From positions 5,994,001 to 6,058,000 of the forward strand of contig NC_080422.1 in assembly GCF_029873635.1 (NCBI RefSeq): 64,000 nt of DNA. The letters run 5' to 3'. A program made the translations under genes and the position numbers. Under the pieces are notes generated by a model. The model saw nothing but the letters and a program-made list of their open reading frames with translations. It searched no databases and was not told where the DNA came from. The DNA comes from Malania oleifera. Its lineage: Eukaryota; Streptophyta; Magnoliopsida; Santalales; Ximeniaceae. Shown one piece after another: positions 5,978-36,237 of the stretch. Each line of letters begins with the position of its first letter. Positions within the stretch are counted from its first letter, which is position 1.

Positions 5978-6008
5978 AAATTTAAAAAATAAAAATAAAA
6001 GTGGGACA
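3909..6008 (-). mobile_element. Solo LTR of a chromovirus-type Gypsy element
   Basis: Read on the minus strand it starts TGTCCCAC at 6008 and ends GTTGTTACA at 3909, so it has TG...CA ends and is about 2.1 kb long. It contains a TATAAATAG box (reverse complement at 5561-5570), a cluster of TCGTCGACGA palindromes (5578-5863), an (AT)n tract (5944-5975) and the R/U5 block near 4546-4606 that is shared with other LTRs in the window. No internal region adjoins it, so LTR-LTR recombination has probably removed the body. The target duplication is obscured by the (AT)n tract on one side. The family is related to the element at 27255-36237 but not the same. Confidence 0.75.
5578..5863 (-). promoter_or_regulatory. 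TCGTCGACGA palindrome cluster in the solo-LTR U3
   Basis: At least five exact TCGTCGACGA palindromes and several near copies (TCATCGACGA, GTTGACGAG) lie within 290 bases directly upstream of the LTR TATA box, in minus orientation. Their position suggests an enhancer-like array. No binding factor is known to me. Confidence 0.5.
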
Positions 6009-6334
6009 TATGTGATGACCCAAAAATATATAAAGTACAATAATAATAAAATAATAAAAATAGTCATTAAGTTAATATCAATACAGAAGTGTTTTTCTGT
6101 AGGATCCTTGATTCCATGTTTGATGCCTAAGAAAGACCTTGTCTTAGCGAGTGCTCAGAGACCATTGCGGCTCAGTCGCTCCCTGGAGGTCGGCCTGGTC
6201 AAAATGGAATTTCATAGGATAAACAGGATAGACATTGTTTGTACACGTAAATAAGTATATATACATAAAATAGTGTTTTGACAGACATAATTTGTAGAAA
6301 TACATAATAAGATGATAATAATATAGGTATCATA

Positions 6335-6656
6335 TGTGGGGCCCACAAGACTATGTGGGGTCCACATGAGTCCCGGAGCCACAAGACACTGTTTATATAC
6401 GTAAATAAGTACATAAAATAATGTTTTAACTGATATAATTTGTAGAAATATATGATAAAATAATAATAATGTAAGTATCATATGCGGGGCCCACAAGACT
6501 GTGTGGGGCCCACATGAGTCCCGAAGCCGTATGGAGGTTTACACGAGTCTCAAAGCTATTTAGAATGCATAAAATCGTATAAGAATTATTCGAGTTACGT
6601 AGGATCCATTCGGGTCTCGAAGTTGTGTGGGGCCCACAAGACCGTGTGGGGCCCAC
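6335..6656 (+). promoter_or_regulatory. Six GTGGGGCCCAC palindromes (TCP-type sites) in the U3
   Basis: Copies lie at 6336-6346, 6355-6365 (GTGGGGTCCAC), 6484-6494 (GCGGGGCCCAC), 6503-6513, 6627-6637 and 6646-6656. They form three pairs spaced about 19 bases start to start, and each pair reads CCCACAAGAC between its members. The sequence fits both class I (GGNCCCAC) and class II (GTGGNCCC) TCP transcription-factor sites. The same cluster recurs in the 3' LTR at 11858-12179. Regulation by TCP factors is an inference. Confidence 0.6.
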
Positions 6657-7007
6657 ATGAGTTTTTAAAATTCAAATTTAATTCTTATTCAAAAATAAAT
6701 AATAAAATAAATGATTACTAAAAATAGTTTAAAAGTAATAATAATAAGAATAATAATGATAATAATGATAAAGAAAAATAATAAAATAATAAAATAATTA
6801 ATTAACTAATTGATTAATTAATTAGGTAAGTAATAAATTAAGAATTTATTTAATGGGAATGGTGGCAAGCACTCCCACATGGCCTCCATCCCCATCCCAT
6901 ACTCAACCCATACCTTGCCCATCCTTTGCCCATTCTTAAATTTTCAAAATTATAATTTCACCCATCTCCCCACACTTTTATAAATTCTATTTCTTCCCCA
7001 AAATTTT

Positions 7008-7020
7008 CCTATAAATAGGG
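7008..7020 (+). promoter_or_regulatory. LTR TATA box
   Basis: CCTATAAATAGGG lies about 1 kb into the LTR and about 350 bases after the palindrome cluster. It predicts a transcript start near 7040-7050, and so the U3/R border. Confidence 0.65.
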
Positions 7021-8571
7021 AGCTCTCAACCTTCATTTTTCACAACAATTTTCCAAGGAAGAGAAGGATTAGTGAGTGAAAGAATTTGTGGTGGAGAGAG
7101 AATTTTTGAATAAATTCTCAATCACCCACTTTTTCCGATCTCATTTCTTAAAGATAACTATTGTGTTCGTAGCACACGGTAAAAGAAGAAGGTAAGTAAA
7201 TTTGATTATGTTAGTATTTTTATTCAAAATTTATACCCGAGTTTATTTGTAAGTAAATTTTGATTATGTTAGTTCCTTTTTATTTTAAATTCATACCCGA
7301 GTTTATTTTGTACGTAAATTTTAATTATGTTACTTAGTTCCACAAAATTTCCATGAGTTTATTTTTACGCATATTTAATTATACCAGTTCTATTTTAATA
7401 TACTTGCATCTATTTTTGGGTTAAGAAATGTTCCAATCCCCTCGGGTAAATTTTCAGCATTTCTTTCTATTCAAAAATAAAATTATATATATTTTTAACA
7501 CAAAAATTGTGTGGCATGAGTTTATTTATATGTTGCATTTTTAAGAAAATATAAGTAAAGATGAGATTTTCACGATATTATTTTTAAATTTGCATAAATT
7601 ATAATAAGATGATTTTAAAACCCCTTATGGCAACGGAAGTTCAAAGTTACAGATGCTCGGTACCGCAGCTTAAAGTTTATACGGATCAGAGTGCACCCAC
7701 ACTGTTTACAGAGTGGTTATTTATGTTAGTGGATTTCTCCTGAGTGCACACCTGGTTTAAGTCCAGGACTTAATAAGGAAAATCTCACTTAAAGTTTACG
7801 TACGTTGATTTAGTTTGGTCGGCCAGCCAGCTAAGTCCAGTCTTCGGACCGCACAACCCAGTCATGGGGGTAAACATGACTTACGGTAAACAGGCCTAAG
7901 GGTGGATTTTTATAATATATGTTTATACATATTTAATTACGTGTACAAAGTTACTGATGATTTGAAGGAAAAGTGTAAGTTTACGTGAAAATGATCATTT
8001 TGGTACTTAAATGACGATCTAAGGAACACGTATAAGGAAAAGTATATGTATGTTTATCATTAAATATTTTTACAGTTTTAAAGTTAAAAGTTTAATTTAG
8101 CAGTTATAGTATATGATTGTAAAAATTTACTGTCGAAATTGATGACAAAAGTTTTATGCAGAAATCTTTAAATTTATGTTTATTCTAAAAGAAATCTTGA
8201 AATTATAGTATTAAATATTATTTTACGAAATTCTTTAAAAGCTCATTTTGGCCACACACTAATAATAATCTTATTTACTTACTGAGCGTCGTCTCACCCC
8301 AATCATATTTTATTTCAGATAACTCTGAAGGACATGTCGGAAATCAGGCTTAGCAAGCATGCGGGTGGGGATTAGAAAAATAAAGATTAATTAGAAATAT
8401 AGTATGATTTCAGATATTTACGTCTGTGTAATTTTCTTCTTTTGAAATAAGTGATTGTAACATGAATAATTAGCGCTCTGGTTTAATAAAAATTGAGTTT
8501 ATTTTGCTTCCGCTGTAAATCAGAAGTAAAAAGTTAATATCCCAGGCCCCTCGGGGTCGGGGTGTTACATT

Positions 8572-8583
8572 TGGTATCAGAGC
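8572..8583 (+). other. Primer-binding site, initiator-Met tRNA
   Basis: TGGTATCAGAGC lies 2 bases after the end of the 5' LTR and matches the 3' end of plant initiator-Met tRNA, the usual primer of this class of element. Confidence 0.85.
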
Positions 8584-9390
8584 AATAGGTTATAGGTTCT
8601 GTAGACTTTAAAGAAATAATTTTACCAGAGCATAGGATATAGGTTCTGTATAATCTAATATATAAATTTTATCAGAGCATAGGTATAAAATATGATTTGG
8701 GTAGGATTGGGTAGTTTAGAATATTTATTTTAGTTTGTTATATTATTATACGCTAATAATAGATTTATGATTTTAAAATAACATTTGATCATTATTTAAA
8801 AATGGATCCTAAAGATAGTAGCATTGGAGGAAATGAGATTTACGTGAAGGCTCCCAAGGATAGGTAATAATTATAAATTCTCTAAGAAAAATAGTAGTAT
8901 TATTGAAGACACGTTAATTAATTTAAATATGTTATTTATGTTTGTAGAAACACATACCCATATTAATGATTTATAATTAATTGTCAAATGTATTAATAAT
9001 TTAAATTTTTTATATATGAATATAATAATAATATATGAGATTTAATTATTTTCACTGTTGTTATTTTCACTAAATATATAAGAAATAACCCATTAGACCC
9101 TACTGAATTTAGAAGTGCTACACATACAAATAGAAATGAGTAAACGGTCTATTATGAAATCTGAATTTACCCAAATTTTCTTTACATGTATAAGTTGGAT
9201 ATGAATATGTATTTTTTTTTTTACATCACATATTCAGTTATCAACAGAACATTCAAACTTAATTTAGGAAAATATATTTTAGCAAAATCTTTAATTTTAA
9301 TTTTGTATTAATTTATAAGGAATTAAATATAATTTAAATATTATATATATTTAAATTCAATATATATATAATCCCTTAGCATGTGTAAGT

Positions 9391-9392
<2 letters not shown>

Positions 9393-9434
<42 letters not shown>

Positions 9435-9718
9435 TTTCATTACATATTCAATTTCCATCAAGTATCCAAGTTTAATTTAGGAGTACAAATTTTGATGAAA
9501 CCTTTAATTTTGTATAAATTTATAAAAGTTAATACAACTTAAAATTTTCTATATATAAAAAAAAAAAAATTTATATATATATATTTTTTAATGAAAGCAA
9601 TATAAAAATTTACTAATTTCCTTCAAATAACTAACCAATGTCAAATCATCAATCGGCTAAACATGCCCAATATTTATTTGATCTAATAATAATAATAATA
9701 ATAATACTAATGTTAATG

Positions 9719-9768
<50 letters not shown>
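9393..9768. repeat. (AT)n and (AAT)n microsatellites in the element interior
   Basis: AT tracts lie at 9393-9431 and 9720-9768, with a short (AAT)n at about 9686-9704. They lie in AT-rich non-coding sequence between the leader and the SINE. Confidence 0.8.
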
Positions 9769-9772
<4 letters not shown>

Positions 9773-9789
9773 GGTACTCTTGTAGTTAT

Positions 9790-9951
9790 AAAAAAAAAAA
9801 AGGGGGCCTCATGGGTGGAAATCATCGGCTATAGCTCACTTACCCCCGAAGCAAGGTCAGGGCATGAGACCACTTGGGCGTAGTGGGGACTCGAACCCGC
9901 GATCACATGGATGCACGGCCGGTTCCTTACCACTAGGCCACCCACCCAAGT
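9790..9951 (-). mobile_element. tRNA-headed SINE (Au-like), antisense to the host element
   Basis: On the minus strand the head carries an A-box-like TGGCCTAGTGGT (9940-9929) and a perfect B-box core GGTTCGAGTCCC (9897-9886), with a spacing of about 31 bases. The unit runs on about 90 bases and ends in a T-run (A-run 9790-9801 on the plus strand). A T-ending tail and this length are typical of the plant Au SINE group. I could not find a clear target duplication. It interrupts the interior of the retrotransposon, so it came in after that interior was formed. Confidence 0.65.
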
Positions 9952-10027
9952 GGTGATCTAAGGATGAAATTAATTATAGTTAAAGCATTAATAAAGATGT
10001 AAAAACATAAAAAGAACCTAGAGTTTG

Positions 10028-10392
10028 CAAATTTTGCAATACGTGTCACTCGCTCAATTTCCGCGACACATGTCGCTATCTCTCGATTTGTGCAAAATGC
10101 GTTGCTCAATATCTGTGACATGCGTCGCTCTCTCTCGATTCTTGTGACACACGTCGTTCTCCCTCGATTTGTGCAAAACGCGTTAAACGATATCTGTGAC
10201 ACGCGTCACCCCCTCTCGGTTCTCACGACACACATCGTTATCCCTCGATTTGTGCAAAATGCGTTGATTGATATCCATGACACGCGTCGCCCTCTCTTGA
10301 TTCTCGTGACACATATCGTTCTCTCTCGATTTATGCAAAATGCGTTGCTCGATATCCGTGACACACGTCGCTCTCTCTCGATTTCCACAACA
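10028..10392 (+). repeat. 81-bp tandem repeat directly upstream of the WOX TATA box
   Basis: The marker GTGCAAAA recurs near 10090, 10171, 10252 and (as ATGCAAAA) 10333, exactly 81 bases apart, giving about four and a half copies. Each unit holds subrepeats of about 27 bases with CTCTCTCGATT and GTGACACACGTCG, rich in ACGCGT/ACACGTCG-type motifs. Because 81 is a multiple of 3, open frames run through both strands of the array by chance. The array ends 12 bases before the TATA box, so it forms the proximal promoter. Confidence 0.85.
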
Positions 10393-10404
10393 CGCGGTCA
10401 TCCC

Positions 10405-10415
10405 CTTATAAAAAG
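10405..10415 (+). promoter_or_regulatory. TATA box of the internal WOX gene
   Basis: CTTATAAAAAG lies about 118 bases before the ATG at 10533. It predicts a start near 10440 and a 5' UTR of about 90 bases. The gene therefore appears to have its own promoter, separate from the LTR. Confidence 0.6.
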
Positions 10416-10532
10416 GGTACGCCCTCCTCGAACTCTAAGCATCACAGTTTTCTATCATCTTGAACAATCACATTTCGGTTTGTAGTGATTAGCTCTTCCC
10501 AACTTGTCTCTTAGTTGTCTCATTACTCGAAA

Positions 10533-11225
10533 ATGTTGCCAAATCACCCAACTCCCGAAGTTGCTGAGAGCAGCACTAGATCGTTGATTCAAAGATGGAA
10601 ACCCGGTAAGGCACAGCTGGAGATTCTAGAGGAGGTCTTCCACAACAGTCAAGGGGAACTCCCTTCAGTGGAGCAGACTATCTTGCTTGCAGCACAACTC
10701 CGACGGTATGGTCCAATCGAGCCGAAAAATATACGCTTTTGGTTTGAGAATCGTAGGCGTAGGCGGGGATCAGTTGGAGAAGCCACTATCTCAACTACTG
10801 CCCCAACAATTCTCCATATTACCTCCTCCGCCACTACCGACCCAAGTAGTGCCCCTGCCATTCTTCCAACCCTCTTCCCTATCGAGAATATTCCGGCTGT
10901 GAAACTTACAACTAATATCTCACCAATGAGCCATATCCCTTACAATGGCAATATCGCAGTCACCACACTAAGGGTTTCGGATAATGCTGGCCTACTTCAC
11001 CATTTCAAGCAAACCCGATTCGCAATGAGACTCATATATGGGCCACCAATAACTCGGGAAGAGAGCAGCTCTTCCTCCTTCGCCGAACAAATGGGCGTCC
11101 TCTCCCTTTTTCCAACCCAAGCCGGCGACATTATAAGAGGTCAACTCTGCCAAGAAAGAACACAAGCGGTTAGCAGTGACACCGCTAGTACTGCGATAGA
11201 TGTTGACGTTGATCTAAGGCTCTAA
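10533..11225 (+). CDS. WUSCHEL-related (WOX-like) homeodomain transcription factor inside the LTR element
   Basis: The 230-residue product starts at the first ATG (10533); the frame is open 18 bases upstream but has no ATG there. Residues about 19-79 form a homeodomain of the WOX type: QRWKPGKAQLEILEEVF, an extended loop (NSQGELPSVEQ), AAQLRRYG, then IEPKNIRFWFENRRRRRG in helix 3. The order RW.P...Q..IL.E, YG.IE.KN, WF.N matches WUSCHEL-clade proteins. At 190-194 LSLFP (in GVLSLFPTQAGD) resembles the WUS box, and the C-terminus DVDVDLRL resembles an EAR repression motif. WUS-family proteins bind DNA in the nucleus and control stem-cell identity. Odd points: Glu72 replaces the usual Gln of WFQN (homeodomain position 50), the Arg run is long, and there is no intron. 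It lies between the two LTRs in the sense direction. The frame is intact, which suggests youth or selection. Confidence 0.82.
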   Translation: MLPNHPTPEVAESSTRSLIQRWKPGKAQLEILEEVFHNSQGELPSVEQTILLAAQLRRYGPIEPKNIRFWFENRRRRRGSVGEATISTTAPTILHITSSATTDPSSAPAILPTLFPIENIPAVKLTTNISPMSHIPYNGNIAVTTLRVSDNAGLLHHFKQTRFAMRLIYGPPITREESSSSSFAEQMGVLSLFPTQAGDIIRGQLCQERTQAVSSDTASTAIDVDVDLRL

Positions 11226-11518
11226 AGGCCAGATCTCGTATATTTTTTATTTATTTATAGGACATGTATAATATATGTACATATATATAATTATCCTTTT
11301 CCACATCTTCTGAATTTTTTTTTTTTTTTTTTTTCCATTTCAACCACTATTAGACCGACGATTCACACTTCAATTCCCAAAATAAAATACTTAGTCAAAT
11401 TGACCCTCAATCTATTCTAAGACTTAATTAAATCATTAATCAATTTACTCTTTCTAATAGCGCAAACCAATTATACAGTACTCATCTTAAATTTGCAAAT
11501 TTCGAGGACGAAATTTTT

Positions 11519-11533
11519 TTAAGGAGGGGAGAT
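11519..11533 (+). other. Polypurine tract of the WOX-carrying element
   Basis: AAGGAGGGGAGAT lies immediately before the 3' LTR. Just upstream, TTTCGAGGACGAAATTT matches the sequence that usually precedes this tract in chromovirus-type Gypsy elements. Confidence 0.8.
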
Positions 11534-14092
11534 TGTGATGACCCAAAAATATATAAAGTACAATAATAATAAAATAATAAAAATAGTCATTAAGTTAATA
11601 TCAATACAGAAGTGTTTTTCTGTAGGATCCTTGATTCCATGTTTGATGCCTAAGAAAGACCTTGTCTTAGCGAGTGCTCAGAGACCATTGCGGCTCAGTC
11701 GCTCCCTGGAGGTCGGCCTGGTCAAAATGGAATTTCATAGGATAAACAGGATAGACATTGTTTGTACACGTAAATAAGTATATATACATAAAATAGTGTT
11801 TTGACAGACATAATTTGTAGAAATACATAATAAGATGATAATAATATAGGTATCATATGTGGGGCCCACAAGACTATGTGGGGTCCACATGAGTCCCGGA
11901 GCCACAAGACACTGTTTATATACGTAAATAAGTACATAAAATAATGTTTTAACTGATATAATTTGTAGAAATATATGATAAAATAATAATAATGTAAGTA
12001 TCATATGCGGGGCCCACAAGACTGTGTGGGGCCCACATGAGTCCCGAAGCCGTATGGAGGTTTACACGAGTCTCAAAGCTATTTAGAATGCATAAAATCG
12101 TATAAGAATTATTCGAGTTACGTAGGATCCATTCGGGTCTCGAAGTTGTGTGGGGCCCACAAGACCGTGTGGGGCCCACATGAGTTTTTAAAATTCAAAT
12201 TTAATTCTTATTCAAAAATAAATAATAAAATAAATGATTACTAAAAATAGTTTAAAAGTAATAATAATAAGAATAATAATGATAATAATGATAAAGAAAA
12301 ATAATAAAATAATAAAATAATTAATTAACTAATTGATTAATTAATTAGGTAAGTAATAAATTAAGAATTTATTTAATGGGAATGGTGGCAAGCACTCCCA
12401 CATGGCCTCCATCCCCATCCCATACTCAACCCATACCTTGCCCATCCTTTGCCCATTCTTAAATTTTCAAAATTATAATTTCACCCATCTCCCCACACTT
12501 TTATAAATTCTATTTCTTCCCCAAAATTTTCCTATAAATAGGGAGCTCTCAACCTTCATTTTTCACAACAATTTTCCAAGGAAGAGAAGGATTAGTGAGT
12601 GAAAGAATTTGTGGTGGAGAGAGAATTTTTGAATAAATTCTCAATCACCCACTTTTTCCGATCTCATTTCTTAAAGATAACTATTGTGTTCGTAGCACAC
12701 GGTAAAAGAAGAAGGTAAGTAAATTTGATTATGTTAGTATTTTTATTCAAAATTTATACCCGAGTTTATTTGTAAGTAAATTTTGATTATGTTAGTTCCT
12801 TTTTATTTTAAATTCATACCCGAGTTTATTTTGTACGTAAATTTTAATTATGTTACTTAGTTCCACAAAATTTCCATGAGTTTATTTTTACGCATATTTA
12901 ATTATACCAGTTCTATTTTAATATACTTGCATCTATTTTTGGGTTAAGAAATGTTCCAATCCCCTCGGGTAAATTTTCAGCATTTCTTTCTATTCAAAAA
13001 TAAAATTATATATATTTTTAACACAAAAATTGTGTGGCATGAGTTTATTTATATGTTGCATTTTTAAGAAAATATAAGTAAAGATGAGATTTTCACGATA
13101 TTATTTTTAAATTTGCATAAATTATAATAAGATGATTTTAAAACCCCTTATGGCAACGGAAGTTCAAAGTTACAGATGCTCGGTACCGCAGCTTAAAGTT
13201 TATACGGATCAGAGTGCACCCACACTGTTTACAGAGTGGTTATTTATGTTAGTGGATTTCTCCTGAGTGCACACCTGGTTTAAGTCCAGGACTTAATAAG
13301 GAAAATCTCACTTAAAGTTTACGTACGTTGATTTAGTTTGGTCGGCCAGCCAGCTAAGTCCAGTCTTCGGACCGCACAACCCAGTCATGGGGGTAAACAT
13401 GACTTACGGTAAACAGGCCTAAGGGTGGATTTTTATAATATATGTTTATACATATTTAATTACGTGTACAAAGTTACTGATGATTTGAAGGAAAAGTGTA
13501 AGTTTACGTGAAAATGATCATTTTGGTACTTAAATGACGATCTAAGGAACACGTATAAGGAAAAGTATATGTATGTTTATCATTAAATATTTTTACAGTT
13601 TTAAAGTTAAAAGTTTAATTTAGCAGTTATAGTATATGATTGTAAAAATTTACTGTCGAAATTGATGACAAAAGTTTTATGCAGAAATCTTTAAATTTAT
13701 GTTTATTCTAAAAGAAATCTTGAAATTATAGTATTAAATATTATTTTACGAAATTCTTTAAAAGCTCATTTTGGCCACACACTAATAATAATCTTATTTA
13801 CTTACTGAGCGTCGTCTCACCCCAATCATATTTTATTTCAGATAACTCTGAAGGACATGTCGGAAATCAGGCTTAGCAAGCATGCGGGTGGGGATTAGAA
13901 AAATAAAGATTAATTAGAAATATAGTATGATTTCAGATATTTACGTCTGTGTAATTTTCTTCTTTTGAAATAAGTGATTGTAACATGAATAATTAGCGCT
14001 CTGGTTTAATAAAAATTGAGTTTATTTTGCTTCCGCTGTAAATCAGAAGTAAAAAGTTAATATCCCAGGCCCCTCGGGGTCGGGGTGTTACA
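11534..14092 (+). repeat. 3' LTR of the WOX-carrying element
   Basis: It matches the 5' LTR base for base wherever I compared them, with no net length change. It repeats the GTGGGGCCCAC cluster, the TATA box and the conserved R/U5 block. Confidence 0.92.
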
Positions 14093-14454
14093 ACATATGT
14101 CACCGTACAGACGGTAACATCTGACATCACCAAGACCACGCATTTGGGGAGTAATGCGGCTTGATCCTAACTATTCAAATTGTGTTTTCTCTAGACGATG
14201 AGATTATTGTCATGTCAGCAATCTGTTTTCAATTTCCCGTGCCTATCACTCCCTACCATGTGGCGGGTGACATCACCCTGCCTCGTGTTGACTCATCAAT
14301 TTTTTAAAAATATAGAAAAATAAAAAATAAAAAATAAAAAAAATACTGTCTATAGCCTCATTGCCACGGATGGCTAACACGTGGCCGCCTAGTCCCGTTT
14401 CCCACCTTCTCCTTCCCTAAACTGAGTTAGGCCGATTTGACCAAAGTCAACTCA
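14093..14454. other. Resumed second unit of the 3.4-kb duplication, then AT-rich sequence
   Basis: It begins with the ACATA target copy. From 14098 to about 14200 it resembles 3605-3715, which shows where the pre-insertion sequence continues. The rest includes TAAAAAATAAAAAAT-type sequence and a GTTGACC segment. No gene is seen. Confidence 0.55.
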
Positions 14455-16021
14455 CGTTGACCTGATTCAAATCGATTGAATTAGTTAGACTTCCCTAGAT
14501 TACACTGTTTTTTTTTTTTTATTAAGTTATTTTTAATTCATTTTTAGATACTGTTTGTAGAATTTGTGTATAACGAATGCTAATACCTTCTTCTCGTGTT
14601 ATTATATTCTCGATCCCAACTTTGGTAAAAGTAGATTAAGCTTACTGGTTCATTGACCTTAAGATTAGTAGAGAAATCAATCAACAAGTAGTAATTAGGT
14701 GAACTAATTGTACCTAAGAAAATAACAGGTTAGTAGCGACTTTATTAAACCATCAATATTTATATCATTCATTGTCATTTCAAACCCCTTCTCCGGATGT
14801 TGCAAAGAAAATATTTTTTAGTTTACTAATTTTTTAAAAAAAAATGTATGTTAGTATTGTCTAAAATCATTTTATTCATTGATTTGAATTTTTTTTAAAA
14901 TTTTTTTTATTTGGATTATAAGAATTAAAATTAATTAAATAATTAGCAATACAACTGTCTTCCTTTAAAAAGTTAAAATTTCGTATTAAGTATTGTGAAT
15001 ATTTTTAAGGAGAGTTCACATTTTGTAACATTTTAATTAACTAAATGATTAGCAATATAATTCAATATCTTATACTAAAGTTCACAATTTGTATTCGAAA
15101 GACTATGAATGTTTCCAAATAGAGCCACAATTTAATTCTTTCCCACATACAGCCAATAATACTTTTGAATTCCTTTTGAATATTAATGTTTAAGTTCTTT
15201 TTTTCCTTCTTAATCTTTTGGCCAAGAGCAAATCCTTAAAAATGTTTACACTTGGGTAATATATTATTAAATTGCATAGATTTTTTTCATTGATTATTGA
15301 ATAGATAAGTTATTTGAATCGTATGCAATTCAAATATGATATTTATCATTTAAACGAATTGTGGGTTATTGGATGAGATTTATACGTTACCCAAATTTAT
15401 TGGTTCTAAAATAATTTGATCTCCTTCCATTTTTGACTACGTCTTAAAATGATTTGTAGTAAAAATAAAAAATCAAGGCAGGATTGTTATGTCAATAAAT
15501 TTATAATCTAAATATTTTTTTAGCAGTTCATCAAAAAAATTAGAGAGTTAATTGGTAGTTATTAAAAATTTAGGGATGTAATATTATATTTTGAAAATTC
15601 AAGAGTGTTTTTGAAATTTAGATATAATAAGTGATTATTAGACCATTTTTTTTTTGGGTGTCCCGAAACTCTAAACTATACAATCCCTTCAAGCTCCCTG
15701 GGCAGCATGAAATTGGGAAATGAAAACATTATCTCCCGTCCATAAAGTCACTATTTAACATTATGTCACAATAAAAAATATATATATAATTGTTATCTAA
15801 AATGTGATAAGACTATCTAACCTATTAAATCTTTTTCGTATGGAACCCACCTTCCTTCTAAGGCTCCATAACATTTATGATCCCTAATCTTAATATAGTC
15901 ATGACAGAAAAATTTTAATTGCACAACTTATTATAGATGGCTAAAGAAGCTAAATTGTCATAAATTCAAAAGCCACAAGGATTTAAATGGAATAATCTTT
16001 AAGTTGACCTAATGCACATAT
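14455..16021. repeat. Non-coding tandem duplication, copy A
   Basis: It shares an ordered series of blocks with 16029-17995, for example AACTTTGGTAAAAGTAGATT, ATCAATATTTATATCATTCA and AGGAGAGTTCACATTTTGTA. It lacks about 230 bases present in copy B near 16115-16350 and two smaller segments. No coding capacity or element ends were found. Confidence 0.7.
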
Positions 16022-16028
16022 AACTTGG

Positions 16029-17995
16029 GTTGACCCGATTCAAGCTAGATGAATCACTTAGACTTTCCTAGACTGCCCTTTTTTTTAAAGAAAATTATTA
16101 TTTTATTTTTAATTCATTTTTAATTAAAAAACTAGAAAAATAGTAAAAAAAAAATTAGGGAAAAATAGAGAAAAATTCTTTGAGTCATCGTTGACTCGAG
16201 AAACAAAAAAATAAAAAAGGGGTAAAATTCATTAAAATATTACGAAATTGTAGAAAAATATTTAAAAATTCTTGAATTTTTTTTGAAAACTTGGGAATGT
16301 TTTGAAGTTTTTTTTTTCTTGGATTTGATGCATGCATGGTCATTTTTGCATGTTTAATATTTGTAGAATGAGTGTATAGGGAATGCTAATACATTTCTCT
16401 CGAATAACTATACTCCTGATCCCAACTTTGGTAAAAGTAGATTAAGTCAACAAATTCCTTAACCTGAACATTATTATAGAAATCAATAAACAAATAGTAA
16501 TTAGGTAAACTAACTGTACCTAGGAAAATAACAGGTTAGAAGAGACTTTATCGAACCATCAATATTTATATCATTCATTGCCATTTCGGACCCCTTCTTT
16601 GGGACGTTGTGAAAAAATTATTTTAAAATTTACTAATTTTTTTTAAAAAAAATATGTTAATAATGTCTAAAATCAATTTTATTCATTGATTTGACTTTTT
16701 TTTTTTACTTGGCTTAAAGGAATTAATAACAATTAAATAATTAGCAATACAATTGTCTTCCTTTAAAAAGTTAAAAAATTTTGTATTAAGAATTGTGAAT
16801 GTTTTTAAGGAGAGTTCACATTTTGTACTATTTTAATTAACTAAATGATTAGCAATATAATTCAATATCTTATAATAAAGTTCACAATTTGTATACGAAA
16901 GACTATGAATGTTTCTAAATAGAGCCACACTTTAATTTTTTCCCACATACAGTCAATGGACGGAAGACTTTCACCCCTGAATTTAGTGTCACACCATAGT
17001 GTTCAAAGTGACGCGATGGTGGCTGGAGTTCCCGGGTTATCAAATAATAATAATAATAATAATAATACTTTTGAATTCCTTTTGAATATTAATGGTTAAG
17101 TTCTTTTTTTCCTTGTTAATCTTTTGGCCAAGAGCAGAATCCTTAAAAATGTTTACACTTGGGTTACATATAATTAAATTGCCTAGATTTTTTTCATCGG
17201 TTATTGAATAGATAAATCATTTGAATCATATGCAATTCAAATATGATATTGATCGATTAAATGAAATGTAAATTATTGGATGAGATTTATACGTTACCCA
17301 AAACTTGTTAAGTTGTTTAATTACGTTACATATTTATCAATTAAAATTTAGTAGGACAAAATTAAGAGACAACCCACGCTTATTTTGAATATAATAATGA
17401 ACTCCTTCCGTTTTTGACAACCTCTTAAAATGATTTGTAGCAAAAATAAAAAATCGAAGGAGGATTGTTATGTCAATAAAGTTATAATCTCAATATTTTT
17501 TTATCAGTTCTTAAAAAAAAATTAGAGTTATTTAATAGTTATTAAAAATTTAGGGATGTAATATTATATTTTGAAAATTCAAGAGTGTCTTTGAAATTTA
17601 GATATGATAAGTGATTATTAGATAGCTTTTTTTTGGGTGACCCGAAACTCTAAACTAGGCTACCCCTTCAAACTCCTCAGGCAGTACGAAATCGAAAAAT
17701 GAAACCATTATTTCCCGTCTATCTTACACTATTTAACATTATGTCACAATAAAAAATATATATAATTATTATCTAAAATGTGATAAGACTTTCTAATCTA
17801 TTAATTCTTTTTCGTATCGAATCCACCTTCCTTCTAAGAGTCCATAATATTTATGGTTCCTAAGCTGTCATGACAGAAAAATTTTGATTGCATGACTTAT
17901 TAGATAGCCAAAGAAGCTAATTTGTCATAAATTCAAAAGCCACATAGGATTTAAATGGAATAATCTCTAAGTTGACGTAATGCACATATATACAT
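16029..17995. repeat. Non-coding tandem duplication, copy B
   Basis: It is the longer partner of copy A. It carries an extra 105-base insert with an (AAT)n tail (about 16958-17063) and about 75 extra bases near 17310-17390. Many point differences separate the copies, so the duplication is not recent. Confidence 0.7.
16958..17063 (+). mobile_element. Short retroposon tail, possibly RTE-type LINE 3' end
   Basis: The insert reads ...GGAGTTCCCGGGTTATCAA followed by (AAT)n and is absent from the matching point in copy A (CAGCCAATAATACTTT), which acts as the empty site. A GGGTTATCAA end followed by a simple A-rich repeat resembles plant RTE LINE 3' ends; this family call is tentative. The repeat AAT makes the exact borders uncertain. 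Confidence 0.45.
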
Positions 17996-19261
17996 GGGCA
18001 TACTTTTCTATGTTACGTGCTCAATTAAACTTCTCGGATAACAAGTTAATTTTTATATCTTTCTATTAAATACTGGGATTTAATCTTAATTGAAAACTAA
18101 CACTCGAATCCTTAAGTCTAATCAAACAAAATTAACTCTATATTTGTTACTTGAATTTTAAACTTTTAATTTAAATTTGTGTCAACTTGAATAAAATAAA
18201 GTACAAAATTATACTGATTTTTTTTATAAAGTTATACAAAATTAAATTAAGAACAAAATTCATATAAACTTTAAAAATAATTTAAATTGTATAATTTTTT
18301 AAAAATATTATAAAAAAAGTATATAATTTAAATCTCATTTTGTTTAAATTTAACTACTTATAAGTTATAAGCGCATAAAGGGCAAAATTTTGGTAATCTT
18401 GAGGTGACATAATTGAAATACCAATTTTACCCTTTATATTTTAGTTAATTAAAATTAAATTCCTTCAATATCCTAAAACCTAAAATGAATCCCCAATCGC
18501 TCACTTGTCCTCTCCTTTCTTCTCGGCGATTGATTTATCTACCCACATGGCTATTCAATTATTGTTATTTTTCACACAACGGCTCATTTACTTTTGGGTG
18601 TCATGTTTCGATTTTTTTTATTCCTCTGTCAATTGATCTTCTCATGGCTTTTCAATTTATGTTTACTGTTATAGCTAAATATCTTTTTTGTCAAAACCTC
18701 CCTATCATAATCCCAATTGTTTTCATTTAGTGTCTGATAACCTTCTATGGTCGTGTATTCCTAGCTTTTTCCTCATATAGATTCTCCCCAAATAGTGATC
18801 ATCCCACACATAAGTTCCACCCACAAAGAAAGTTTACGATTTCCCTCCTGCACACCAAATATGCAAAGCGTGTTAGTTCAATTCAAGTTTCCATCCATTC
18901 AAATTCAAATGCATTTACTAAAATTTTGACGAGACATTAAATACTAGGTTTGTTCTTGGTTTTACAAAAATTACAGCTATACATGGTATAATTTCTTATA
19001 TTATTTTGTATGTTTTATCGATAACAAAACAAACTACTATTCATAACTTGTTGTACTCCATTACAAAACATATCTTTGTTATCAGTTAGATAAAGTTTAT
19101 CTTTCTCTTCAAATGGATTGTAAAGGGACACAAAAGTATTATTGAATTGGATTGTATTTCTTTCATGTCTTTGCTCATATCCTCAATTACTTTTATTAAG
19201 TTAGTTCAAAGTTTTATTTGTCTTTTAGTCTTTTTCTATATAATATATCATATATCATTTT
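17996..19261. other. AT-rich stretch, no gene seen
   Basis: One 81-codon frame (18485-18730) has no recognisable domain and an unusual hydrophobic composition. I do not call it a gene. Nothing else could be supported. Confidence 0.4.
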
Positions 19262-27254: not shown

Positions 27255-29219
27255 TGTAATAACCCGAAGAATAATAGTATTTAAATAATAATAATAATAA
27301 AAAAAAAGGGTAAATGGGAAATAGTAATAGAAGGAGGGCGTTCGTCGACGACGTTGCATACTGGGCTCGTCGACGAAGGTGTGCCTCGTCGACGAGAAGA
27401 TATCGAGAGGATGTTCTAGGTGACTCTAAATTTCATCGACGAAAGGGAGAGTTCGTCGACGAATTTCCTCTTGATCTCGTTGATGAGCCAGGTCACCTCG
27501 TCGACGAATCCCATAGTATAAATAGCTCAAACTCAGATTTTACGCAAAAAATTTCAGCAGGAAAAAAACCCTCTCTCTCTCCTCTACAATTCCTCCCTCC
27601 TCTCTCTTCAATTTCGGCTCCATCATTCACCAAATCGATGATCTGAGGCCACCACGATGCTTCTGGGGAAGTTCTCTCCAAGTCTGCTGGAGCGGATCAT
27701 CGGTGGGGCTGAATTGAATTTCATCCCAAATTTAGGGTAAGGCTTTTTAAATTTTTTTTTTTCAAAATTAGGCTTTCCACCAGTTGTAGGAAATGTAGTA
27801 GACATAGAGATAATGATATTTTATTTTGAGAAATGTTGCTTTTAGGGTGTTGAGTGGGGATCCCTGGGGGTGTAGGGCCCATCACAATAGGGAATTATTG
27901 CAGGAATCAGGTAAGAGAGATATGTTATGCTAGGCAATTTTATGATTTAGTACAAATCATATGTTTATAGCAAATTATTATTCAGACCATATATACAGTT
28001 TTCAGAGCCTGATAATATTGATATTTAAGTTGTGTGGCATGAGTTTAATATTCGATCAGTATATGGTTTATATAACTTTCAGAATACCATGATTTATAGT
28101 ATACGTACAGAAACTTGTATTTTACAGTATTTTCAGAATACTATGTTAAACAAACCTTAGAACCATAACATTCAGCTACTACAGTCAATTAGATATTTCA
28201 GTTATTCAGTTATGCAAACATCTTAAATATTCAGTTATTACAGTTTATTCAGATTAGTTTATATAATGTTATGGTTATTTCATTTGTTACAAAATCATGG
28301 TAAAAGCAGTATTTTAAAAATATTAGTTATTTATATATATAGTATCAGACCCTAATGGACCATATTCAGTCAGTAGAGCACGGTACCGTACCTATATTCA
28401 GTTCAGAGTGCAACCACTACTCAGATAGTATGTGGTATTCAGAAGTCGATCGTGCCTATGTTGTGGACAGACTCCCCATCAGATATGGGTTAAGGGGACC
28501 GATTTGACTGTCGGAGTTCAGTTGACTTACCTTGGTCGGCCAGTCAGGTTAGGTCCCGCCTTCGGGCCGCACAACCCTGTCATGAGGGGTTAAATCATGA
28601 CTCTCAGTTATCCATCCAGGGAACCTTTTCATTTATTATATAAATGTATGATCAGATTTACAGAAAGTAGTCATACCTATAGATGTTAGAAGTATTATGA
28701 GTAAATATTCAAGAAAATCAATTTATGTTAAGCAACATAGGTATGATTTATATTGCAACAGGTATACAGATTTGACTCAGCTTTGTTAGTTAAGGTATTT
28801 TCCTAGTTAGAATTTGCAAGCATGTAGCTCACTTGCTACGCATTAGCGAGATCATATTTCATTTTACTGAGCGTTGACTCACCCTATTATTTTAACATTT
28901 TTCAAGTGAGCTAGTTAGGCGAACGGATCGGGCCTATAGGTAGAGGGTCTACTGTATTGCCTTATCAATAGGGTGAGTGTTTTTGGGAGATTATTTTGTA
29001 TAGCACCAGTTTCAGTTGAGGGTATTTTTTAGAATAGTTTATATGTATATTTTGGGAGCATTTTAGCACTCTGATATTGTATATTTGTGTTTTTGGTTAT
29101 ATCTTGCTGCATAGGTTGATAGTTATATATATATATGGGAAGGTATCAGATTAGTGGAATTTCATAGTATTTATTATTGGAAAGTTATAAAATATCATAA
29201 AGTATAGCAGGTCGTTTCA
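27255..29219 (+). repeat. 5' LTR of the Tekay-type element
   Basis: It begins TGTAATAACCCG. U3 carries TCGTCGACGA-type palindromes (27341-27510) that end 7 bases before the TATAAATAG box (27518-27526). The conserved R/U5 block lies at 28534-28590. Confidence 0.9.
27341..27510 (+). promoter_or_regulatory. TCGTCGACGA palindrome cluster in the Tekay-type U3
   Basis: Several exact or near copies of TCGTCGACGA lie within 170 bases and end just before the TATA box. The same cluster recurs in the 3' LTR at about 34314-34480, less regular there. It resembles the cluster in the solo LTR at 5578-5863. Confidence 0.55.
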
Positions 29220-32200
29220 ATTTGGTATCAGAGCCTAGGTTGCTAGATTTTGTAGACTTTAGAATGCAGTGAAAGCAATACCAGAGTATAGGAAAGGATT
29301 TGATGATTGTTTTGTAGTCTTGGTACAGGATTTCCATGGTGGTTTCTGTGTTTTTCCTAGGAGGACGATTTCATAAAAACCATAATAAACTATTATCGGG
29401 TTGTGTGTCTAGGTTGTAGAACTGGATTTTGAATTAAGATTAGGGAAGGTAGTTAATTATATTCTTTGTTTTTCATGATGGACCTAGGAGGTAGTGGCAT
29501 GAATGCTGGGGAGGACAGGCTAGGACCTTCCAGCATAGGAGGTGCAGATACTAATGTCGTACTGCGCAGCGTCACGTAGCAGGTGATGGTTGAGATGGCT
29601 AGGAGCTCTGGGGAGCGTAGCTACATGATAGAGCAGTTTACGTGGATGAAGCCCCCATCTTTTGTTGGAGGAGATGACCCGATTGTAGCTGAAAATTTGG
29701 TCTAGGACATTAAGGAGACGCTGGTTGTGCTTCCATGTACAGAAGAACAGGAAGTGGTATTTGTGGCATTTAAACTGATAGGGGAGGCAAAGCGCTGGTG
29801 GAGATCAGTGCGTCTGATTGAGGAGCAGAGGCCGATTCCAGTGTCGGTGACGTGGGACCGATTCAAGGAGTTGTTCTTCGAGCGATATTTCCCTACTATC
29901 GTTTGGAGCGCGAAGGCAGCAGAATCTATGTACCCGGTACAAGGACAGATGACAGTATCTCAATACGCAGCTCGATTTATCTAGTTGTCGCGATTTGCCC
30001 CACATCTAGCACCAGATGAAGAGAAAAAGGAAAGGAAGTTTGAAGAGGGTCCGCGGTAGAATTTGTTTAAGCAGGTGATTGGTTTCAGGGCTCAGACATT
30101 TGCAGAGGTTGCAGACAAACTTGCTATTATCAAGAGTGGTATACAGAGAGGTATAACAGCCCAGAGTGAGAGGAAGAGACCTGCGCCTCAGAGTTTTTAG
30201 GCTGGTTCTAACAGGGGCCCATGGAGAGGAGGTCGTGACAGGGGAGATCAGAGGCAGATGATAGGATCTCATTAGAATCAGGGTATATAGACCTTCCTAG
30301 TATGTCAGACATGCGGGAGACGACACTTGGGGGAGTGCTAGGTAGGGAGAGATGTTTGTTATAGTTGTGGGAGACCCGGCCACATGGCACGTGCGTGCCC
30401 AGGACCGCCAGACCAGGTTCCAGCTCCTAGGCCTTATCAGGGAGGATATCAGGCGCCTCGTGGAGGCTAGCAGAGGAATGTAGCTTCGACGAGGGTTTAC
30501 GCTTTGACACCGGGTGATGCGGAGGCTGCCACGGATGTGGTGACAAGAACTTTTATTGTTTTATTATATCCAATTATTGTCTTATTTGATTCACGTGCTA
30601 CTCACTCTTTTTTCTCTGCATCCTATATTAAATTATTTAAGAGTGAGACCCAGTCATTAGATATAGAATTGTCAGTAGCTACACCGTTAGGGTTAGTGAT
30701 GAGATGTCAAAAGGTATTCAGAGGCTATCCAATAGAAATTCAGGGGAGAGTGCTACCAGTTGACCTAATCGTGTTAGATATGTGTGGATTTGATGTAATA
30801 GTGGGTATCAACTAGTTGGTAGTAAATCGCGCTAGTATTGATTGTTATTAGAAAGAAGTGATTTTCAGACTCTCTAGCGAGCAGGAATTTAGATTCGTCG
30901 GTTCATGTGTACGTGCTCTGTCGTAGTTGGTGTCAGCTATGCAGGCAAGCAAATTGCTCATGGACGGAAGTCAGGGGTTTATGGCTTTTGTAAAAGAGGC
31001 GATAGAAAATGAATCAAAAATTGATAGTACCTCACTGGTAAGAGAATTTCCAGATGTTTTTTCGGAGGAGCTACCTAGGTTGCCTTCTGAGCGTGAGGTG
31101 GATTTTCCTATAGATTTGCCTTCAAGGACAGGGCCGATCTCTAAGGTTCCCTACCGTATGGATCTAGCTGAATTGGGAGAATTAAAGGATCAGTTGTAAG
31201 ATTTGTTGGATAAGGGATTTATACGACCCAGTGTATCGCTGTGGGGAGCTCTAGTGTTGTTCGTAAAGAAGAAGGACGGGACTATGAGGATGTGTATTGA
31301 TTACAGGGAGATAAACAAGGTCACTATTAAGAATAAATATCCTCTACCCCGTATAGATGATTTGTTTGGTCAGCTTTAGGATACATGGGTGTATTCCAAG
31401 ATTGACCTCAGATAAGATTATCATCAATTGAGGGTAAAAGTAGAGGACGTTGCAAATACAACTTTCATGACTAGGTATGGGCACTACGAATTCCTCGTTA
31501 TGCCGTTTGGTCTGACGAACGTCCCAGCTGTGTTCATGGACTTAATGAATAGAGTTTTCCACCAGTATCTATATCAGTTTGTAGTGGTTTTATTGATGAT
31601 ATACTGGTGTGCTCGAGGAGTTTTGAGGATCATAAGGTGCATTTGAGACGAATACTATAGACGCTCAGGGAGAAAAAGCTTTATGCTAAATTTAGTAAAT
31701 GTGAGTTCTAGCTTGAAAATGTTGCATTTTTGGGCCATGTAATCTCAGGAGAGGGTATTTCAGTAGATCCCAGTAAGATTGATGCAGTGGTGAATTGGGT
31801 CAGGCCGAAGAACGTGTAGGAAGTCAGAAGTTTCTTGGGACTGGCTGGTTATTATCATCGATTTGTCGAGGGATTTTCTACTTTATCAAGGCCTCTCACA
31901 CGTTTAACTAGGAAAAATGCTAGATTTGTGTGGGATGAAGAATACGAGCAAAGTTTTTAGGAATTAAAGTAGCGGCTCGTAACTGCACCAGTACCGACGA
32001 TTCCATTAGGAGGGGATGGTTATGTAATTTACAGTGATACATCCTTGAAAGGGCTCGGTTGTGTACTGATGCAGCATGGTAGAGTGATAGCATATGCTTC
32101 TAGGCAATTTAAAGAATACGAAAAGAACTACCCTACTCACGATCTGGAATTGGCTGCAGTGGTACACGCACTAAAGATTTGGAGACATTACTTATATGGT

Positions 32201-34194
32201 GAAAGATATGAAATATTTTTTTATCATAAAAGTCTAAAGTACTTCTTTACGCAAAAAAGAGTTGAACATGCAACATAGGAGATGGTTAGAACTCATCAAA
32301 GATTACGATTGCGCCATCAGCTACCACCTAGGTAAAGAAAATGTGGTGGCTGATGCATTGAGCCGTAAGTCTAAGGACATAGTGCAGTTAGTAGTAACAA
32401 TTCCGCATTCAATTCAGATGGACTTGGAAAGGCTTGGTGTGGAGTTAGTTGAAGATGATCCTTAAGCGTTTATTTCCAGTTTGGTTGTACAACCTACACT
32501 ATATGAAAGGATTAAAGCTGCACAAGGAGATGATCCAAAATTAGTAGAAGTAATAGTCAGAATATAGGATGGTCAAGGAGAGGAATTCAACATTTCTGAC
32601 AATGGGGCTTTGAGATTTCACACCATATTGTGCGTACCTACGGATGATAGCATTAGGAGAACCATTCTTGAAGAGGCTCGCAGATCTCTATACACTGTTC
32701 ACCTTGACAGTACGAAAATGTATAGGGATCTGCGAGAATATTTCTGGTGGAGTAGCATGAAAAAGGAGATTGTAAAATTTGTACAGCAGTGTTTGATATG
32801 CCAGCAGGTTAAGGCTGAGCACTAGAGGCCGACTGGGCAGTTGCAGCCACTTTTCATTCCCGAGTGGAAATAGGACCACGTATCCTTGATTTTGTTACTG
32901 GGTTACCGATGACAATGCATGGTCAGAATGCCATTTGGGTGATTGTTAATAGGCTGACAAATGCGGCTCATTTTCTACCCATTAAAATTAGCTATCCTAT
33001 GAACAAGTTGGCAGAGATCTACATTCAGGAGATTGTTCGACCCCATGGAGTGCCGATATCTATAGTTTTATACCGTGATCCACGCTTTACATCGCGGTTC
33101 TGGAAGAGCTCGCAAGAGGCTTTGAGAACTCAGTTGGCATTCAGCATCGCTTTCCCTCCTCAGTCAGACGATCAGACAGAGAGAACAATCCAGGTACTTG
33201 AGGATATGCTGCGAGCATGAGTGTTAGATTTTGGGGGTAGTTGGACCCAGTATTTGCCGTTGGTGGAATTTGCTTACAACAACAGCTATCAGGCTAGCAT
33301 AGGCATGACACCTTATGAAGAGCTTTATGGTAGGAGGTGTCGTTCTCCTTTATACTAGAATGAGTTAGGTGAGAGGCGAGTTTTGGGGCCAGAGATAGTA
33401 CAGCAGGCGTACGATAAAGTTTGGCTTATTCGAGATAGAATTAGTGCAACACAGAGTCGGCAAAAAATCTACGCAGACACTCGCCACCGGGAATTGAAGT
33501 TTGAGGTGGGAGATCATGTATTTTTGAAAATAGTACCACTGAAAAGAATCATGAGGTTTGGGAAGGAGGGTACGTTGAGCCCTAGATTCATTGGCCCATT
33601 TGAGATACTTGAGAAGATTGGGTCAGTTGCCTATCGACTAGCTTTACCACCATCTCTATTCAAAATTCATGACATATTTCATGTTTCTATGTTAAGGAAA
33701 TACACCCCAGATCCTTCCCATATTATCAGCTATGTAGAATTGGAACTCAGTGGTGATCTAGCATATGAGGAAGCTCCAGTGCAGATCTTTGATAGAAAAG
33801 AACAGGAGTTGCGCAGTAAAAAGATACCGCTAGTAAAAGTCCTGTGGAGGAATCACGCGATAGAAGAAACTTCTTGAGAGCTTGAAGATGAAATTAGACA
33901 GAAGTACCCCCACATGTTTAGTGAATTACAACAATAATGTATAAGTTAAACTAATAATAATTTCATTTTTTTTAGTACAATGCAATTGTAATGTAGAATA
34001 TAGGATAGGTAGTATTTTGGTTTTGGGAGAATTTTCTTTTGTATATGTAATCTCCCAGGATTCAGAATGTAACCACGATATTCCTCCACCATAAATGAGG
34101 GTAAGTAATAAAATAAGTAGACCGTTTTGTCTTAAGGGAAGATGAATTATATGAATAGTAAATTTCGAGAACGAAATTTATAAGGAGAGGAGAA

Positions 34195-34219
34195 TGTAAT
34201 GACTCGAAGAATAATAGTC

Positions 34220-34266
<47 letters not shown>

Positions 34267-36098
34267 GGGGTAAATTGGAAACAGTAACAGAAGGAGGTAG
34301 TAGGTTTTGCGTTCGTCGACGATGTTGCATATTGGGCTCATTGACGAAGGTGTGCCTCGTCGACGAGAAGATACCGAGAGGATGTTCTTGGTGACTCTAA
34401 ATTTCATTGACGAAGGGGAGAGTTCGTCGAAAAATTTCCTCTTGACCTTGTCAACGAGGTGACGTGGCTCGTCGACGAATCCCATAGTATAAATAGTTCA
34501 AACTCGAATTTTACGCAGAAATTTTCAGCAAAAAAACCCTCTCTCTCTCTCCTTTGCTATTCCTCCCTTCTCTCTCTTTGATTTCGGCTCCATCGTTCTT
34601 CGAATCGATGATCTGAGGCCACCACGACGCTCTTGGGGAAGTTCTCTCCAAGTCTGCCGGGGCGGATCGTCAGTGGGGTTGAGTTGAATTTCATCCCAAA
34701 TTTAGAGTAAGGTTTTTTAATTTTTTTTTTCAAAATTAGGCTTTCCACCAGTTGTAGGAAATGTAGTAGACGTAGAGACAATGATATTTTGTTCTGGAAA
34801 ATGTTGCTTTTAGAGTGTTAAGTGGGGATCCCTGCAGGTGTAGGGCCCATCACAGTAGGGAATTTTAGCAGGAATCAGATAAGAGAGATATGCTATGCTA
34901 GGAAATTTTATGATTTAGTACAAATCATATGTTTATAGCAAATTATTATTCAGACCATATATACAGTTTTCAGAGCCTACTAATATTGATATCTAAGTTG
35001 TGTGGCATGAGTTTAATATTAGATCAGTATATGGTTTATATAACTTTCAAAATACCATGATTTATAGTACGTATAGAAACTTGTATTTTATAGTATTTTC
35101 AGAATACTATGTCAAACAAACCTTAGAACCATAACATTCAGCTACTACAGTTAATTAGATATTTCAATTATTCAGTTATGCAGACATCTCAGATATTCAG
35201 TTATTACAGTTTATTCAGATTAGTTTATATAATGTTATGGTTATTTCAGTTGTTACAAAATCATGGTAAAAGCAGTATTTTAAAAATATCAGTTATTTAT
35301 ATATATAGTATCAGACCCTGATGGACCATATTCAGTCAGTAGAGCACGGTACCATAGCTATATTCAGTTCAGAGTGCAACCACTACTCAGATAGTATGTG
35401 GTATTCAGAAGTCGATCGTGCCTATGTTGTGGACAGACTCCCCATCAGATATGGGTTGAGGGGACCGATTTGACTGTCGGAGTTCAGTTGACTTACCTTG
35501 GTCGGCCAGTCAGGTTAGGTCCCGCCTTCGGGCCGCACAAACCTGTCATGAGGGGTTAAATCATGACTCTCAGTTATCCATCCAGGGAACCTTTTCAGTT
35601 ATTATATAAATGTATGATCAGATTTACAGAAAGTAGTCATACCTATAGATGTTAGAAGTATTATGAGTAAATATTCAAGAAAATCAATTTATGTTAAGCA
35701 ACATAGGTATGATTTATTGCAACAGGTATACAGATTTGACTCAGCTTTGTTAGTTAAGGTATTTTCCTAGTTAGAATTTGCAAGCATGTACCTCACTTGC
35801 CACACACTAGAGATAGCATATTTCATTTTATTAAGCGTTGACTCACCCCATTATTTTAACATTTTTTTAAGTAAGCCAGTTAGGTGAGCAGATCAAGCTC
35901 GCAGGTAGAGGGGCTACTGTACTGCCCTATCAGTAGGGCGAGTATTTTTGGGAGATTATTTTTTATAGCCTCATTTTCAGTTGAGGGTATTTTTGAGAAT
36001 GGTTTATATGTATATTTTGGGAGCATTTTAGCACTCTGGTATTGTATATTTATGTTTTTGGTTATATGAATTCAGCTTCCCGTTGCATAGGTTGATAG

Positions 36099-36156
<58 letters not shown>

Positions 36157-36237
36157 GAAGGTATCAGATTAGTGGAATTTCATAGTATTTATTATTGGAA
36201 AGTTATAAAATATTATAAAGTATAGCAGGTCGTTAGA
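34195..36237 (+). repeat. 3' LTR of the Tekay-type element
   Basis: It begins TGTAATGACTCG. It is longer than its partner chiefly because of an (AAT)n tract at 34207-34263 and an (AT)n tract at 36101-36154. The conserved R/U5 block lies at 35500-35556. Confidence 0.9.

Follow-up and report, generated by a model that had tools for sequence, protein, structure and literature searches.

A WUSCHEL-related homeobox gene carried by a family of long terminal repeat retrotransposons in Malania oleifera

Organisation of the element

The window analysed here, a stretch of 64,000 nucleotides from contig NC_080422.1 of the Malania oleifera genome (G000:C6:5994001-6058000), contains at positions 6011-14092 a retrotransposon whose interior carries an intact WUSCHEL-related homeobox (WOX) gene. 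Its two long terminal repeats (LTRs), at 6011..8569 and 11534..14092 on the forward strand, are 2559 bp each, run from TG to CA and show 0 mismatches, leaving an interior of 2964 bp between them. The sequence ACATA is found directly before the 5′ LTR (6006..6010) and again directly after the 3′ LTR (14093..14097) as a target site duplication (TSD). A primer binding site (PBS), TTTGGTATCAGAGC, which we take to be of the initiator-methionine-tRNA type, abuts the 5′ LTR (8570..8583, forward strand), and the retrotransposon 3′ end (11492..11533, forward strand), with its polypurine tract (PPT) AAGGAGGGGAGA, lies before the 3′ LTR. Paired direct LTRs with TG...CA ends, a TSD, and a PBS and PPT adjoining the LTRs are the features that define an LTR retrotransposon, and the initial annotation was correct in each of those it had listed: identical LTRs, the ACATA duplication, the primer site and the purine tract. 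A length of 36-42 bp of the 3′ end recurs at three other places in the window, one of them in a second element at 27267-36234.

Between the PBS and the PPT, and on the forward strand unless stated otherwise, lie a leader (8584..8867), the same as that of a subfamily C copy described below (L102); an AT-rich non-coding segment with TA runs (8868..9790); a repeat resembling a short interspersed element (SINE), in antisense orientation (9791..9957, reverse strand); 3.9 copies of an 81-bp tandem repeat (10065..10383); a TATA box, TATAAAA (10407..10413), 126 bp upstream of the WOX start codon and marking a putative promoter; the single-exon WOX gene (10533..11225); and its 3′ non-coding part (11226..11491). 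The SINE-like repeat was recognised by eye, so that its limits are approximate; it is presumably derived from a tRNA, judging by its appearance, and it aligns in 19 copies of the element with nearly no gaps. Rfam (at gathering thresholds) and ARAGORN gave no matches. TATAAAA is present at the equivalent position in 27 of 28 copies, the window's counted in.

With respect to retroviral genes, a Pfam search (4/32 listed frames) gave no gag or pol match for the window element, only weak hits below the cut-off. A short reading frame in the leader, MDPKDSSIGGNEIYVKAPKDR (8802-8867), is possibly the stump of gag. Besides the WOX gene, the longest internal frame is one of 160 codons at 10003-10485, upstream of the gene and open across the 81-bp repeats (81 bp being 27 codons); it is probably non-coding, and further frames are likewise open across that stretch. 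No relatives of the element were found in the viral-contig and genome-contig collections.

The WOX reading frame and its protein

The open reading frame at 10533-11225 has 231 codons including the stop and encodes a protein of 230 amino acids. A run of at least 229 open codons, in any of the six frames, arose in 1/5000 dinucleotide shuffles of the coding sequence (CDS), and when the entire interior was shuffled, 0/1000 sequences attained 230 codons. The homeodomain (amino acids 20-78; 10590..10766), with the recognition helix NIRFWFENRRRRR, matches Pfam PF00046 with an E-value of 1e-8, and its closest solved relatives are WUSCHEL (2.3e-10) and STENOFOLIA (2.7e-10). It is identical to Arabidopsis WUSCHEL at 22/59 residues. 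The protein thus has the WOX-type homeodomain that defines the WOX family, and the description of a complete, open WOX-type gene on one exon stands.

Placement in the WUS clade, also proposed by the initial annotation, is supported only in part. A WUS-box-like motif, VLSLFP, is present at amino acids 189-194 (11097..11114), differing from the WUS-box TLxLFP at the first residue; LxLFP arises in 0.27% of shuffled tails. The protein ends in DVDVDLRL (amino acids 223-230; 11199..11222), which contains, as VDVDL, an EAR-like motif of the form [LVI]x[LVI]x[LVI]. According to the part of PMC9968055 that we used, the EAR-like motif is found across all three WOX clades and is not specific to the WUS clade, for which the marker is FYWFQNH. 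This marker is not present in the window protein, which reads RFWFENR; three older copies (L091, L095 and L099) read FWFENH. The claim therefore keeps its WUS-box-like motif and EAR-like end and loses the clade marker. The motifs are defined here after PMC9968055 and PMC5977200.

Copies across the genome

The genome comprises 1,494,336,490 bases, with 13 chromosome-size contigs of 86-157 Mb. Searching it with the WOX protein gave 1030 first-look candidates, and all of the best 150, which were scored, are near full length and 85-100% identical, with 122 of these 150 free of internal stops. Eight copies, the window's among them, share an identical protein. With up to 3 mismatches allowed, a 41-nt pattern from the recognition-helix region matched 300 genomic sites, and its reversed control matched 0. 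Used as a query, the 3′ non-coding part returned 565 candidates; 40 were scored, and 32 of them adjoin a WOX from the protein list.

Twenty copies, from ranks 9-63 of the protein-score list, were fetched with their flanks. LTR-family sequence surrounds the gene in all 20, in the order LTR-gene-LTR and in the same orientation on both sides. The paired LTRs are at least 96.5% identical in 18/20; those of L019 are 95.0% identical, the pair of L026 gave only a poor 361-bp match at 77%, and the alignment of the L018 pair covers only 436 bp. An automatic test recognised a 5-bp TSD in 9/20, and there was no cross match among the flanks of these nine copies and the window. As each of the nine has its own TSD and the flanks do not cross-match, it is unlikely that the LTR-gene-LTR arrangement is an artefact of assembly, a worry the initial annotation had raised along with its prediction of full copies at different target sites, which were indeed found.

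More diverged copies retain the same architecture. A subfamily C copy (L101, L102) shares the leader, PBS, PPT and LTR start, and an older copy, L091, has the same LTR start at 90% identity (L103). The family is real and old, it numbers hundreds of copies, and its only evident gene is the WOX gene. Some WOX copies are spaced by ∼5.3-5.8 kb (L001, L011, G000:C6:84.607-84.624 Mb and G000:C7:96.28 Mb; for example, C1:68242943 and C1:68248578). Such spacing suggests LTR-WOX-LTR-WOX-LTR tandem arrays in which LTRs have come to be shared through recombination, and this would account for some of the absent TSDs.

Relatives with gag and protease sequences

A 37-nt sequence spanning the junction of LTR and PBS has 412 matches in the genome within 3 mismatches (control, 0). 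Among the first 100 matches listed, all exact, 73 have an identified WOX gene 1.2-3.2 kb downstream. Three of the remaining 27 sites were sampled (L104, L105 and L106; 801 bp each for L104 and L105). The frames of L104 carry a protease (RVP_2, 8e-11), preceded by a gag-like frame that has no gag match in Pfam, and L105 encodes a zinc knuckle (zf-CCHC, 5e-7). The third, L106, is upstream sequence of the WOX type and matches window 9120-9962 at 86.6% identity. Two of the three sampled sites are thus candidate gag-pol partners, represented in 801 bp only by pieces of the gag region or protease. As pieces of gag or protease are present in relatives with the same junction, the WOX element appears to be non-autonomous, and we infer that gag-pol relatives would supply its enzymes in trans.

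The second element in the window (27267-36234) is also of Ty3 type. Its LTRs are 89.6% identical and it contains pieces of gag, RVP_2, RNase H and SH3_Tf2. Its similarity to the WOX element is confined to the regions of the PBS and PPT and ∼80 bp of LTR.

Origin of the captured gene

On the reading of the initial annotation, the element picked up a multi-exon WOX gene still present in this genome, and did so very recently. A WUSCHEL homeodomain query gave 640 candidates, and 150 were scored. Among these are 12 WUS-type host loci at 63-85% identity to the query (L069-L080) and, below them, three host WOX genes of other types (L081, L082 and L090; types assigned by eye), whilst the element-type WOX genes are 33-44% identical to the query. 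Five of the host genes (L069, L077-L080) have a TLxLFP match 0.4-1.5 kb past the homeodomain; a change of frame, or in L080 a stop, separates the two, and these genes look multi-exon from their sequence. The element gene differs from these five in having the homeodomain and the WUS-box-like motif in one frame, which, together with the identical LTRs, is what would be expected of a recent, spliced capture.

The divergence of the element proteins nevertheless makes such a capture very improbable. Three element homeodomains reach only 27-45% identity with the host and reference homeodomains compared, and 27-44% with those of the host. In a homeodomain tree, calculated without L068, a single clade with 100/100 support unites the nine element sequences, and the stem leading to it measures 1.2-1.3 changes per site; this clade adjoins WOX1/STF-type sequences weakly (54-72% support, with the long stem). 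Moreover, copies differ from the window by a synonymous divergence (dS) of up to 0.31, which contradicts recent capture unless the source lies outside the set searched. As identity to the host does not exceed 44% and the clade stem is long, either the capture is old or the source is outside what was searched. The single exon of the element gene does not by itself prove retroposition, because AtWOX7 and a tomato WOX3 also have a single exon in the portion of PMC5977200 consulted. In the corresponding portion of PMC6482515, gene pairs of the WUS clade in Brassica napus have 2-5 exons.

Seven of the host loci (L070-L076) are WUS-like duplicates of the host WUS gene, at G000:C1:44.656-44.686 Mb, C13:48.3 Mb and C435, with 71-78% homeodomain identity to Arabidopsis WUS. 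They are located near that gene, which is at C1:43.74 Mb, and in three of the seven (L072, L074 and L076) the homeodomain stretch is broken by a stop.

Age of the insertion and exchange of the gene module

Whilst the gene appears to have been in the family for a long time, the insertion in the window is very young. At 1.3e-8 substitutions per site per year, one difference between the LTRs is expected per 15,030 years, in agreement with the initial estimate of about 15,000. Zero differences place the insertion at no more than ∼45,000 years (95%), or 147,000 years at a rate of 4e-9. Ages calculated from LTR mismatches at 1.3e-8 are 0-0.6 My for 18/20 flanked copies, although these are rough values, since some of the alignments overrun the LTR.

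The CDS is identical in five copies (L002, L003, L005, L006 and L008), as is the 3′ non-coding part (0/296), yet over the first 1.2 kb of the 3′ LTR these copies diverge by up to 7.9% (72/1005 for L002 and L003). On this sequence comparison, the module containing the gene has passed from one LTR lineage to another, as it would by template switching between co-packaged RNAs. We considered the contrast between a conserved CDS and a diverged LTR as a proof of selection and rejected it, as identical modules occur in LTRs up to 8% apart.

Selection on the WOX protein

The comparison of synonymous and non-synonymous change between copies, which the initial annotation had proposed, was made within the CDS. 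We examined 85 element CDSs, of which 58 are intact; the 27 dropped have stops (15), are shortened (10) or have altered ends (2; L089 and L092, by hand). Five copies of subfamily C (L060, L061, L064, L065 and L067) differ from the window by dS of 0.234-0.243 and by a non-synonymous divergence (dN) of 0.057-0.062, giving a dN/dS ratio (omega) of 0.23-0.26 by the NG86 method over 62-65 counted changes. Read at 1.3e-8 per site per year, a dS of 0.24 places the divergence of subfamilies A and C at ∼9 My. Simulations of neutral change with a transition/transversion parameter (kappa) of 6.7 gave a median NG86 omega of 0.71. Values of 0.26 or less appeared in 1/30000 runs at 66 substitutions and 1/30000 at 72, neither of them free of stops.

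Codon models (GY+F3X4, kappa 6.5-6.7, with omega fixed at 1 evaluated at the best of ten kappas) gave a similar result for the amplifying subfamilies. For nine copies of A and C, omega was 0.337, with a log-likelihood (lnL) of -1277.53 versus -1287.15 at omega 1, which is rejected; for 13 copies of A, B and C it was 0.455 (-1418.75 versus -1425.13). Consistent with this, nucleotide diversity at codon position 2 is 0.010, as against 0.021 and 0.022 at positions 1 and 3, in 19 aligned copies chosen by protein score (the internal alignment omits L016 and L026). Five older intact copies, chosen by homeodomain, retain the homeodomain, an LSLF-type box and a D-V-D-type end. It is likely, though not proven, that the WOX protein is under constraint in the lineages that propagate.

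Several observations weigh against this reading. Across the tree as a whole omega is only mildly below 1, at 0.733 for 54 distinct intact copies (lnL -4647.85 versus -4654.66 at omega 1) and 0.741 for 12 representatives (-3033.5 versus -3037.4). For the tails of the five older copies, NG86 omega is 0.37-0.87 in comparison with the window and 0.38-0.93 in comparisons among the five, and taken one by one these are not separable from the neutral median. Nearly a third of the CDSs (27/85) are broken or shortened, the exchange of modules means that a contrast between CDS and LTR proves no selection on its own, and the copies were mostly picked by protein similarity, which favours a low dN. Binding of the LTR by the WOX protein itself was rejected as evidence: there is no conserved WUS site in the LTR, TTAATGG at 6850 being present in 7/20 aligned LTRs and lying in the stretch, LTR positions 541-960, where variation is greatest.

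The observations on omega, on the older tails and on broken CDSs, together with LTR ages of at most 0.6 My in 18/20 copies, are what one would expect if an old captured WOX gene simply hitchhiked in a non-autonomous element and remained intact because most of the sampled copies are young. We consider passive carriage of this kind rather unlikely. It does not readily explain an omega of 0.34 between amplifying subfamilies some 9 My apart, the retention of the homeodomain, WUS-box-like and EAR-like parts, or a second codon position half as variable as the other two. Constraint could also arise if some copies acted as ordinary WOX regulators for the host, WOX genes being regulators of development. 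This we regard as distinctly improbable, as the constraint links young, multi-copy subfamilies and no LTR-free element-type WOX was recognised among 20 copies with both flanks and, on the 3′ side only, seven more and parts of two others.

Thus the reading we favour, with a probability of roughly 0.65, is that the window element is one of several hundred non-autonomous Ty3-type copies with an old WOX cargo that is kept by selection and serves the element.

A possible role for the gene in the element

The WOX gene may serve the element itself, and the steps by which it could do so can be outlined. Gag-pol would have given way long ago to a foreign segment, probably from the host, comprising non-coding DNA, a TATA box and the WOX gene, with any introns of the captured gene removed when the sense-oriented element RNA was spliced. 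The element RNA would be copied and inserted in trans by the gag-pol relatives that share its junction. WOX protein, with transcription driven by either the TATA promoter of the gene or the LTR, would then act in meristem cells, maintaining or enlarging the undifferentiated pool that yields germ cells; alternatively, it might maintain expression of the element in those cells. Either way, elements with a working WOX gene would gain more inherited copies, and purifying selection, for which there is support between the amplifying subfamilies, would hold the protein intact in propagating lineages.

A broader proposal is that an LTR lineage has adopted a developmental regulator as an accessory gene for its own spread, through the stem-cell pool or through its own expression in the meristem, whilst borrowing the enzymes of relatives, and that this has happened perhaps repeatedly, in Vigna, Malania oleifera and conceivably Rosa. 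We put this forward tentatively, at somewhat below even odds.

LTR-captured genes are often viewed as passive and short-lived. Here a transcription-factor gene replaces gag-pol at hundreds of places, and constraint has apparently persisted across a dS of ∼0.24. If WOX does serve the element, a selfish regulator of development exists in plants, and it can be tested directly whether plant transposons manipulate the meristem that supplies the germline. If the events in Vigna, Rosa and Malania are repetitions of one another, plant LTR elements would have used WOX genes as a tool time and again. Genome annotations that list hundreds of ‘WOX genes’ may be counting mobile elements.

Comparison with known systems

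The initial annotation considered a complete gene of this kind in an LTR element to be undescribed. However, a 2023 meeting report (Naito, PMC10714607) describes many WOX copies in Vigna marina and V. riukiuensis, more than 1000 in the latter, mostly between identical LTRs with TSDs. The Malania family is alike in having many LTR-flanked WOX copies with TSDs. Most Vigna species have 2n=22 and genomes of 500-600 Mb, compared with the 13 chromosome-size contigs and 1.49 Gb of Malania. The Vigna account (section 7 of the report) gives no sequence, selection test or partner. In our searches of the Creative Commons-licensed PubMed Central literature, no study describing selection on a WOX gene within an LTR element came up, and only the Vigna report is directly on the topic. 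What is new is another genome, the old residence and divergence of the gene, the gag-pol relatives, the exchange of modules and the signs of constraint; the kind of element is known from one short report.

Large numbers of WOX genes have also been described in roses. In the part of PMC11405225 we drew on, Rosa chinensis has 381, of which 364 are in rose-only clades, R. multiflora has 170 and R. rugosa 105; the genes lack collinearity within rose, and the authors ask for further evidence on the expansion. The string ‘transpos’ does not occur in its main text, and the printed motifs, TLPLFPMHGED and WFQNLKA, differ from those of the Malania element. That LTR elements lie behind the rose expansion is a guess on our part.

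Gene capture by plant LTR elements is generally well known (PMC13317346, PMC3726574 and PMC5664825, each as far as excerpted). In the last of these excerpts, retroduplicated NLR genes of pepper and other plants lie in LTR elements and have fewer introns than their parents, and genes of all kinds within LTR elements number from 1398 (rice) to 3898 (potato). The cargo in pepper consists of immune receptors, whereas in Malania a transcription factor is carried, and no other gene is evident in this large family. Parts of host genes likewise lie within LTR elements in the case of Bs1 of maize and of the LTR-captured genes of rice, sorghum and maize (PMC13317346 and PMC3726574, in part), but the Bs1 segments have no full-length open reading frames, unlike the Malania WOX gene. 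Within the main texts of these two papers ‘homeobox’ does not occur, nor does ‘WOX’ in that of PMC13317346.

Other features of the window

Just downstream of the WOX element, a block of ∼1.8 kb is tandemly duplicated (14554-17998), its copies being 86-92% identical in three pieces. An open, single-exon gene for a PPR protein of 1073 amino acids lies at 38644-41865. Remains of a Copia element occupy 49794-54996, with an RVT_2 piece at 53511-54746 between 255-bp repeats that are 96% identical.

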